Shown one piece after another: positions 32,984 through 34,743 of a stretch of 44,678 nt of DNA. The DNA comes from Dehalococcoidia bacterium (lineage in GTDB: Bacteria > Chloroflexota > Dehalococcoidia > GIF9 > AB-539-J10). Positions within the stretch are counted from its first letter, which is position 1. Each line of letters begins with the position of its first letter. The notes below the pieces were generated by a model. It was given only the letters and a program-made list of their open reading frames with translations. It was not told the DNA's origin and did no database searches. The position numbers and the translations under genes are program-made. The stretch is from the NCBI GenBank assembly GCA_030602785.1, contig JAUVZB010000011.1, positions 1-44,678 on the forward strand, in the 5' to 3' direction.

Positions 32984-33012
32984 TTGACACGCCCGATGGA
33001 CGGGCCTAGAAT
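32984..33012 (+). promoter_or_regulatory. Strong promoter upstream of the amino-acid dehydrogenase
   Basis: TTGACA (32984-32989), exactly 17 bases, TAGAAT (33007-33012). The predicted start is 33019, at the first G of GGGATGT. Confidence 0.8.
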
Positions 33013-33018
33013 GCCGCC

Positions 33019-33181
33019 GGGATGTCGGGTGGGTCTGTGGTGCTGCTGCCATGGCGCCCCGAGGGGGGTATCCTCCGGGCGACGCATCTCCTCATTCATT
33101 TATCAGACACACACATCCCAGTGCGTGGGGCCGCGAACGGAACGCCCAGGGGGCCGGGTTCAACCCGGCCCCCTTTTCTTT
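33019..33181 (+). ncRNA. Structured leader or small RNA ending in an intrinsic terminator
   Basis: From the predicted start the RNA can fold with GGGATGT (33019-33025) pairing to ACATCCC (33113-33119) and GTCTG (33033-33037) to CAGAC (33104-33108). Inside them is a stable hairpin CGCCC-GAGG/CCTC-GGGCG (about 33054-33080). The domain is followed by a perfect terminator at 33149-33181. This is either a roughly 160-nt small RNA or an attenuating leader of the dehydrogenase gene, which starts about 100 bases beyond the terminator. I recognise no known class: it lacks the SRP, tmRNA, TPP, SAM and T-box consensus elements. It is not coding in a convincing frame. Confidence 0.6.
33149..33181 (+). 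terminator. Intrinsic terminator within the dehydrogenase leader
   Basis: An 11-bp perfect stem (33149-33159 with 33163-33173), loop TCA, then TTTTCTTT. It is the clearest terminator in the window. Confidence 0.88.
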
Positions 33182-33213
33182 GTGGGAGGAAGAGCGACTC
33201 GTTGGTGACATGC

Positions 33214-33242
33214 ACGGAGCCGCGGTTAGGCCGCGGCTCCGT
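33214..33242 (+). promoter_or_regulatory. 12-bp perfect hairpin before the dehydrogenase start
   Basis: ACGGAGCCGCGG pairs with CCGCGGCTCCGT around loop TTAGG. No T-tract follows, and it lies 27 bases before AAAGGAGG. It could stabilise the mRNA 5' end or take part in leader control. Confidence 0.55.
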
Positions 33243-33282
33243 CATTGCAACTGCAGGAAGTGATAGAGAAAGGAGGCTACAC

Positions 33283-34407
33283 GTGGGCGCTGAAGAAGAG
33301 ATCTTTGGCTATGCGGACGACCTGGGGCCGGAGAAGGTAATCCATTTCTACGATCCGAGACTGCAACTGAAGGGGATTCTCGTGGTGGACAACACCGCAC
33401 TTGGTCCTGCTATCGGAGGAATCCGCATGGCGCCGGATGTGACCACGCGTGAGATATTCCGGCTGGCGCGCTCCATGACGCTCAAGAACTCGGCTGCCGG
33501 CATATCTTATGGTGGCGGGAAGGCCGGCATCCGCGGGAATCCCGACATATCCAACAAGGATGAGGTGATAAGGGCGTTTGCACGGTTCCTACGGGTTCAT
33601 ACCGACTACATCCCGGGTCCTGACATGGGCACGGACGAGCATTGCATGGCGATAATCCAGGACGAGATTGGCCGGGCTATTGGCCTGCACAAGGAACTCG
33701 GCGGCATTCCTCTGGATGAGATTGGTGTGACAGGCTACGGCGCCGTTGAGGCAGCGGAAGTGGCTGCAGATTTCATCGGGATGAGCCTGAAGGGCGCCAC
33801 CGTTGCCATAGAGGGATTCGGAGCAGTTGGCCAGGCATGCTTCCGGTCACTGGTGACGAAGGGCGCGAAGGTGGTGGCGGTCTCGGACATTGACGGCGCC
33901 CTCTTCGACCCCGATGGACTTGAGTTCGACGCCATTGTGCAGTACGACCAGTCCACGAAGAAGGTGAGCAAGCTATGGAACCGGGGGTATGACCGGGGCC
34001 GGCGGATTTCTGATGAGGAGCTGTTCGCACTCGATGTCGACATCCTCGTACCCGGAGCACGACCGGACGTCATCACGATGAAGAACGTGGGGGACGTGAA
34101 GGCGCGGCTGGTGATTGAGGCGGCGAACATTCCTGCGACTCTTGAAGCCGAGAGGTGCCTGGGAGACAAGGGAGTGCTGGTCATTCCCGACTTCATCGCG
34201 AATGGTGGAGGCGTCATTGCCGGCTCCGTTGAGCTTCGCAGGGGCACCATCGAGGAGAGCTTCGAGACTATCAGGAAACAGATAAGCTGCAACGTCAGCG
34301 AGATACTCGCATTGAGCAAGGCCGAGGGGCTGTATCCCCGGGAGGCAGCCGAGCAGGTCGCACGGCGGCGGGTCATTGTGGCGATGAAGGACAAAGGGAG
34401 GCTGTAG
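33283..34407 (+). CDS. Glu/Leu/Phe/Val dehydrogenase family enzyme
   Basis: A 374-residue NAD(P)-dependent amino-acid dehydrogenase that deaminates an amino acid to a 2-oxo acid and ammonia. The catalytic-lysine motif is SYGGGKAGI, followed by PGPDMGTDE. The Rossmann domain starts at VTGYGAVEAAEVAADF and GATVAIEGFGAVG. FIANGGGVIAGSVE near the end is conserved. It is shorter than typical hexameric glutamate dehydrogenase (about 420) and close in length to leucine dehydrogenases, so the substrate is open. The start is GTG 33283 with AAAGGAGG six bases upstream; longer frames reach back through the terminator and are not real. A transporter gene follows. Confidence 0.9.
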   Translation: MGAEEEIFGYADDLGPEKVIHFYDPRLQLKGILVVDNTALGPAIGGIRMAPDVTTREIFRLARSMTLKNSAAGISYGGGKAGIRGNPDISNKDEVIRAFARFLRVHTDYIPGPDMGTDEHCMAIIQDEIGRAIGLHKELGGIPLDEIGVTGYGAVEAAEVAADFIGMSLKGATVAIEGFGAVGQACFRSLVTKGAKVVAVSDIDGALFDPDGLEFDAIVQYDQSTKKVSKLWNRGYDRGRRISDEELFALDVDILVPGARPDVITMKNVGDVKARLVIEAANIPATLEAERCLGDKGVLVIPDFIANGGGVIAGSVELRRGTIEESFETIRKQISCNVSEILALSKAEGLYPREAAEQVARRRVIVAMKDKGRL

Positions 34408-34443: not shown

Positions 34444-34473
34444 TTGACAATACGAACTGCTGCGCGGAATAAT
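34444..34473 (+). promoter_or_regulatory. Promoter of the NSS transporter
   Basis: TTGACA (34444-34449), an 18-base spacer and AATAAT (34468-34473). The predicted start is near 34480. Confidence 0.7.
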
Positions 34474-34479
34474 AGCTGC

Positions 34480-34743
34480 CGTACGTAGGTACTGGATGGC
34501 ACGTCCTGCCCGGAGGGCAGGAAGGGGGGTGTTGTGAACGGGGGTTGCTGTAGGGATTTGTCGAGCGCGTCCGCCGGATGGGGACGAGCCTTTGGTGGGT
34601 ATCGCGATGCGGCTGCCTGGTAGGCAGCCGTTCTTATGTCGGACGGCGTGCGAAGTGCCCTGTAGCTGTCCTCCTGCGTGGGGACAGAAAGGTCGAGCTG
34701 CAGGGCAAGACTGAAGCTACTAAGACTGATAGGAGGTGATCAA
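34480..34743 (+). promoter_or_regulatory. Long structured 5' leader of the NSS transporter
   Basis: About 264 bases without a credible gene, but with three strong hairpins: CCTGCCC/GGGCAGG (34505-34521); CGGCTGCCT/AGGCAGCCG (34610-34630); and GCCCTGTAGCT/AGCTGCAGGGC (34657-34667 with 34696-34706, one G-U pair). CGTCCG (34568-34573) can pair with CGGACG (34640-34645) to enclose the second. The ribosome binding site AGGAGGTGAT follows the last hairpin. I recognise no known riboswitch class. Confidence 0.55.
34610..34630 (+). terminator. Terminator-like hairpin in the NSS leader
   Basis: A 9-bp perfect stem with loop GGT, followed by TTCTTATGTC. The T-tract is imperfect, as expected for a conditional attenuator. 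Confidence 0.5.

Follow-up and report, generated by a model that had tools for sequence, protein, structure and literature searches.

The leader of an amino-acid dehydrogenase gene in a Dehalococcoidia bacterium is very probably gated by an intrinsic terminator, and regulated read-through into the gene is predicted. This leader occupies positions 33019-33282 of the window, by which we mean the whole 44,678-nucleotide stretch of DNA analyzed; the window is a contig of the 2.57-Mb genome G000, whose near relatives are MAGs of Dehalococcoidia and other Chloroflexota. The original prediction had proposed a riboswitch or protein-controlled leader with a promoter, a 7-bp end pairing, a terminator and a second hairpin. 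All of these elements are present where they were placed, and the leader can be described as cis-acting, terminator-containing and without an Rfam class, leaving the riboswitch-like reading partly supported. It is plausible that the leader represents a new example of a known control principle, transcription attenuation, and not a new riboswitch.

Promoter and terminator of the dehydrogenase leader

The locus is built around the following features.

32984-33012, + strand: sigma-70-type promoter TTGACA-17-TAGAAT (-35 at 32984-32989, -10 at 33007-33012), with 11 of 12 consensus matches
33148-33181, + strand: intrinsic terminator and putative attenuator with a 12-bp stem, a 3-nt loop and a U-rich tail, from folding, shuffles and orthologs
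33283-34407, + strand: ELFV-family amino-acid dehydrogenase gene (374 aa; GTG start preceded by the Shine-Dalgarno sequence AAGGAGG), from Pfam, profiles and orthologs

We compared six orthologous leaders, those of G000 (the window), G006, G004, G002, G016 and G005. The promoter, originally described as perfectly spaced, does have a 17-nt spacer and is common to all six: TTGAC and TAGAAT were kept in G006, G004, G002 and G005, and G016 carries TTGACA-17-TAATGT.

The terminator (AGGGGGCCGGGTTCAACCCGGCCCCCT at 33148-33174, followed by TTTCTTT) has a folding energy of -26.8 kcal/mol. An equal or better hairpin arose in 1.4% of dinucleotide shuffles of the leader, with a fold z of -3.9, and the terminator that had been placed at 33149-33181 was thus borne out as both non-random and conserved. 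A strong intrinsic terminator lies between the promoter and the gene start on the same strand, the arrangement of an attenuator, in five of the six leaders (G000, G006, G004, G002 and G016), 79-128 nt behind the start region. In the G005 leader, promoter and gene are present and the terminator is absent. Each of the five terminators was rare by chance (0.4-4.6% of shuffles), and in the more distant species the stems have unrelated sequence, for example AACGGGCTGGGGGATCCCCCAGCCCGTT in G002 and AAGACTGGGATTTTTCCCAGTT in G016. Because promoter and terminator were kept in five of six leaders with divergent sequences, and such terminators are rare in shuffles, the attenuator layout is well supported. 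That a promoter-proximal terminator is maintained while the sequence turns over is the best-supported part of our finding. The data comprise only five terminator-bearing leaders, from about three independent lineages.

One alternative is a fixed, unregulated partial terminator that merely sets a low expression level. The G005 gene, which persists without a terminator, is consistent with this, as are the lack of a conserved upstream structure and of visible selection on the leader peptide described below. However, the terminator was kept in five leaders despite sequence turnover in the distant ones, which suggests selection, and we regard a fixed terminator as unlikely. It nevertheless ranks first among the rival explanations, followed by a protein-controlled leader and then by a riboswitch or a separate small RNA.

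A promoter, about 160 nt and a terminator are also the anatomy of a small RNA gene, which would end at 33181 and leave the dehydrogenase to be transcribed from another promoter. Yet no second promoter-like site was found between the terminator and the gene, and the promoter and terminator stay beside the dehydrogenase gene although the RNA body is unconserved. No homologous leader RNA was found in G001 and G003, where the close ortholog is missing, and a separate small RNA gene seems to us distinctly improbable. The upstream neighbor is a tRNA-Ser gene in divergent orientation, so the terminator is unlikely to be part of a same-strand upstream transcription unit.

The distribution of the leader was further surveyed among relatives. 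A blastn search of the leader among 100 relatives returned one clear homolog (G006, 80%), the other matches being short and attributable to chance. In the neighboring family f64 the leader is short (~100 nt) and has no terminator, and orthologs with 45% identity have different promoters and upstream regions, without a leader of the window type.

The proposed sensor domain and the second hairpin

Beyond the promoter and the terminator, the original prediction involved three further segments.

33019-33025, + strand: 5' arm of the 7-bp end pairing, GGGATGT, as originally claimed; not conserved
33113-33119, + strand: 3' arm of the same pairing, ACATCCC, as originally claimed; not conserved
33214-33242, + strand: second GC-rich hairpin of at least 12 bp, without a U-tract, from folding

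The two arms, exact complements in the window, had been thought to close a folded sensor domain of about 100 nt. In relatives this stem is broken: the window has 7/7 pairs, the nearest relative 6/7 and the following one 4/7, and the remaining orthologs have no alignable counterpart. Over the three alignable leaders the closing helix was paired in 81% of cells, and few of the adjoining pairs (columns 21-25) survived beyond the window. At -40.8 kcal/mol, the 102-nt domain folds no better than shuffles (-37.7 +/- 3.5 kcal/mol; z = -0.91; 38 of 200 as good), and its whole-domain covariation score over the three alignable leaders is borderline, being reached by 39 of 500 shuffles. RNAalifold favored other structures, including an alternative 5' hairpin in which 92% of pairs are kept in three leaders with one compensatory change; we rejected this hairpin as a conserved element, its covariation not exceeding shuffle controls (190/500). 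The folded sensor domain was therefore not upheld, and conservation of its stems among relatives, on which the original prediction had hinged, failed for the closing stem.

A covariance model of the 5' domain, searched against 100 relatives, gave convincing scores in its three source genomes only; the covariation search suggested at the outset thus yielded no convincing further members, and covariation was weak or at shuffle level. Searches against Rfam, at the gathering score and at E values up to 10, returned nothing relevant, and the best sub-threshold matches were terminator look-alikes. This agrees with the earlier statement that no known class matched, and no known housekeeping RNA was recovered. 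A T-box match was likewise absent from Rfam even at E values up to 10. With three alignable sequences, some structure may yet be present, but we see nothing positive that would support an aptamer.

A transcription-attenuating riboswitch would require that the ~100-nt 5' RNA bind a small molecule, such as an amino acid, and that an alternative fold open the terminator. The layout fits this, G000 and G006 share two well-conserved blocks of the 5' RNA, G004 has part of the first block as well (GCUGCUGCC), and the alternative 5' hairpin is largely retained. Set against these are the lack of an Rfam match at any useful score, the broken closing stem with a fold no better than shuffles, covariation within controls, a covariance model confined to its source genomes and the lack of a strong antiterminator, and a riboswitch is, on balance, quite improbable.

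The second hairpin, also part of the original prediction, is indeed present and non-random in the window genome (z = -5.1), but it is not conserved: only 7 bp of it remain in G006, another hairpin stands in its place in G004, and none was found in G002 or G016.

A reading frame beginning near the 5' end of the leader

The leader also contains an upstream reading frame, which the original prediction had missed.

33022-33147, + strand: near-leaderless upstream reading frame before the terminator, MSGGSVVLLPWRPEGGILRATHLLIHLSDTHIPVRGAANGTP, with its ATG 9 nt after the -10 element
33080-33115, + strand: pyrimidine-rich, G-poor stretch with the hydrophobic codon run HLLIHLSDTH (counterpart in G004, LLVFNFFFFHL)
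33148-33282, + strand: continuation of the same frame without a stop through the terminator, in phase into the dehydrogenase gene, from reading-frame analysis

The ATG at 33022 would correspond to about position +3 or +4 of the RNA. Its distance from the -10 element is 9 nt in G000 and G006, 8 nt in G004 and G016, and 4 nt in G002, so the RNA would begin almost at the start codon; in G002 the ATG may sit at or before the start site. A short reading frame with a possible start site, as in leader-peptide attenuators, was thus present on five leaders. The ATG frame is open through the terminator hairpin in all five, as in pyrL-type attenuators, and neither other frame is open in all five, although openness as such is not rare, each frame being open by chance about half the time (44-58% of shuffles for each leader). 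The window frame never stops before the dehydrogenase gene; the frames of the relatives stop earlier or are out of phase.

Codons for L, I, V, F, M and W were most numerous in the ATG frame in five of five leaders (14, 16, 18, 9 and 9, against maxima of 8, 9, 11, 6 and 5 in the other frames), with shuffle P values of 0.029, 0.005, 0.008, 0.09 and 0.26. For the pre-terminator stretch of G004, the best-scoring segment gave P = 0.002. Between G000 and G006 there are no indels over the 126 nt from ATG to terminator, and the aligned G004 leader has a gap of 3 nt there. The G000/G006 substitutions are spread evenly over the three codon positions (8/9/9) and the similarity score of the two peptides is not above chance (P = 0.18), which gives no hint of selection on the leader peptide; conservation of codons for a single residue was absent among the hydrophobic codons of the leaders. 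We do not claim the frame as a conserved peptide, since its substitutions lack codon-position bias. No convincing antiterminator was detected: upstream partners of the terminator arm were no better than shuffles in three of the five leaders and weak in the other two (0.07-0.16). A mutually exclusive antiterminator defines trp-type attenuators, not pyrL-type ones.

The pyrimidine-rich, G-poor stretch before the terminator, seen in G000, G006 and G004, could also serve a regulator or RNA-binding protein that chooses between termination and read-through, and the presence of long hairpin-bearing leaders on both genes of the locus (see below) would suit such control. In G002 and G016, however, such a stretch is not apparent, and we identified neither a repeated motif common to the leaders nor a regulator gene adjoining the leader, which makes a protein-controlled leader rather unlikely.

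Leaderless starts elsewhere in the genus were also considered. TAGAAT lies 6-8 nt before the ATG of full-length proteins in two ortholog sets, a tubulin/FtsZ-like protein (390 aa) and an M16 peptidase-like protein, names that we presume from reading the translations and not from a family search. These two sets suggest that leaderless starts are probably used in the genus. Genus-wide, no general excess of ATG just behind promoters was observed (22 at 5-9 nt vs 25 at 15-19 nt), and leaderless starts are convincing only for specific ortholog sets. TA-like signals close before start codons have been described in Chloroflexi (PMC3160421). The leaderless promoter of the 390-aa tubulin/FtsZ-like gene, TTGACATT(A/C)GTGAAGGAGGG(CAT/AAC)TAGAAT(N6)ATG, is strikingly conserved, spacer included, and is present in all seven genomes of the genus (G000, G006 and other members; L097-L116).

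The dehydrogenase and the neighboring transporter gene

Pfam assigned the encoded protein to the ELFV dehydrogenases, and no more than five further genomes of the family have a close ortholog (95, 86, 68, 66 and 65% identity). Sequence profiles scored highest for glutamate dehydrogenases (214 bits), followed by leucine (170) and tryptophan (144) dehydrogenases. The GPxKGG motif, whose lysine we take to bind the side-chain carboxylate in known glutamate dehydrogenases, reads GPAIGG in the window, and the lysine position is Ile, Val or Phe in six of six orthologs. Because this lysine is replaced and the second-contact serine of glutamate dehydrogenases aligns with a glycine, the predicted substrate is probably a hydrophobic amino acid and not glutamate. 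The downstream neighbor is an SNF-family sodium symporter gene, and the missing glutamate-binding lysine together with this transporter fits a hydrophobic amino-acid signal.

A second ELFV homolog in G000 (G000:C23:6737-7744) contains an in-frame TAG, which may reflect a pseudogene, recoding or an assembly error. Outside Chloroflexota, the nearest dehydrogenases that we found come from archaea, with 49-56% identity (L071 and L072 from Bathyarchaeota, L073-L075 from ANME-2), which suggests gene transfer between sediment archaea and Dehalococcoidia.

A separate promoter, TTGACA-18-AATAAT, precedes the SNF transporter gene, followed by a ~260-nt leader (window 34444-34743) with a terminator-like hairpin, CGGCTGCCTGGTAGGCAGCCGTTCTT, at about 34610-34635. 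In a further block of this leader, GCTGTCCTCCTGCGTGGGGACAGAAAGGTCGAGCTGCAGGG, the loop hardly varies in G006 and G004, and one outer-stem pair covaries (U-A/G-C). The element had no match in Rfam, and its covariance model, searched in 393 genomes of the class, gave strong matches only within the genus; the weak matches elsewhere that were inspected were not upstream of SNF genes. Of the two leaders, that of the SNF gene more closely resembles a structured regulatory RNA. In G003 (L122), which has no close dehydrogenase ortholog, an SNF transporter gene comes immediately downstream of that tRNA-Ser gene, with a TTGACA-17-TAGCAT promoter and a leader bearing a GGGGGGGCTTTGCCCCCC hairpin, indicating that a gene was exchanged or lost at this site.

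A possible mechanism of attenuation

Our tentatively preferred reading, which may well hold yet falls short of being probable, is translation-coupled transcription attenuation of the dehydrogenase gene by the leader. RNA polymerase would start at about 33019 and, on reaching the terminator, would mostly stop unless the hairpin were prevented. The ribosome is the most likely agent of such prevention; it would load at the AUG, 3-4 nt from the 5' end, and translate the hydrophobic-rich leader frame across the terminator. With charged tRNAs for Leu, Ile, Val, Phe and Trp plentiful, the ribosome would keep pace with the polymerase and cover the 5' arm of the terminator, and transcription would enter the catabolic gene, which would thus be on when its substrate amino acids are abundant. 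If the ribosome stalled or failed to load, the terminator would form. The promoter and terminator with their conservation, and the location and open state of the frame, are observed; translation of the frame, regulation of the terminator and what the signal is and in which direction it acts are inferred. The direction in particular is deduced from the course of the frame across the terminator, the missing antiterminator and a probable catabolic role. In its most specific form, in which translation from the very 5' end of the RNA serves as the antiterminator and switches on a hydrophobic amino-acid dehydrogenase when amino acids are plentiful, the proposal is doubtful.

Known attenuators share parts of this arrangement. 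The pyrL leader begins with a conventional 5' UTR and senses UTP by way of polymerase pausing. In E. coli pyrBI, ribosome-polymerase coupling across this leader prevents an intrinsic terminator (PMC5021804). The window leader is similar in that its frame crosses an intrinsic terminator, but its AUG lies at the 5' end, it shows no evident UTP logic and it precedes a gene for an amino-acid dehydrogenase. In mycobacteria, leaderless upstream reading frames have been proposed as attenuators (PMC4633059). These too are short frames at the 5' end of leaderless transcripts upstream of amino-acid metabolism genes; they were described as attenuating translation and contain conserved Cys runs (cysteine-rich leader peptides), whereas the window leader carries an intrinsic terminator and lacks any conserved run of a single residue. 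Mycobacterial attenuators of this kind were reportedly taken further by Canestrari et al. in 2020. Classical leader-peptide attenuators, such as ilvB1 of M. tuberculosis, place hydrophobic or branched-chain codons before a terminator (PMC13236596). The window leader likewise has hydrophobic codons ahead of the terminator, as do trp, ilv, leu and phe attenuators. In those systems, however, the leader peptide ends ahead of the terminator, and stalling gives rise to an antiterminator that turns biosynthesis on; the window frame instead runs across the terminator in front of a probably catabolic gene, and we see no evident antiterminator. If true, the proposed control would have a sign opposite to that of classical amino-acid attenuation.

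The leader is narrowly distributed, in a few related uncultured Dehalococcoidia, and its leaderless-frame twist is interesting but unproven; a terminator that is merely fixed would be ordinary. We know of no attenuator described in Chloroflexota that combines a leaderless upstream frame with terminator crossing, and, to our knowledge, hardly any account exists of how uncultured Dehalococcoidia regulate the breakdown of amino acids. If an intrinsic terminator is indeed coupled to leaderless initiation here, this would amount to a minimal form of attenuation, requiring neither a Shine-Dalgarno sequence nor an antiterminator.
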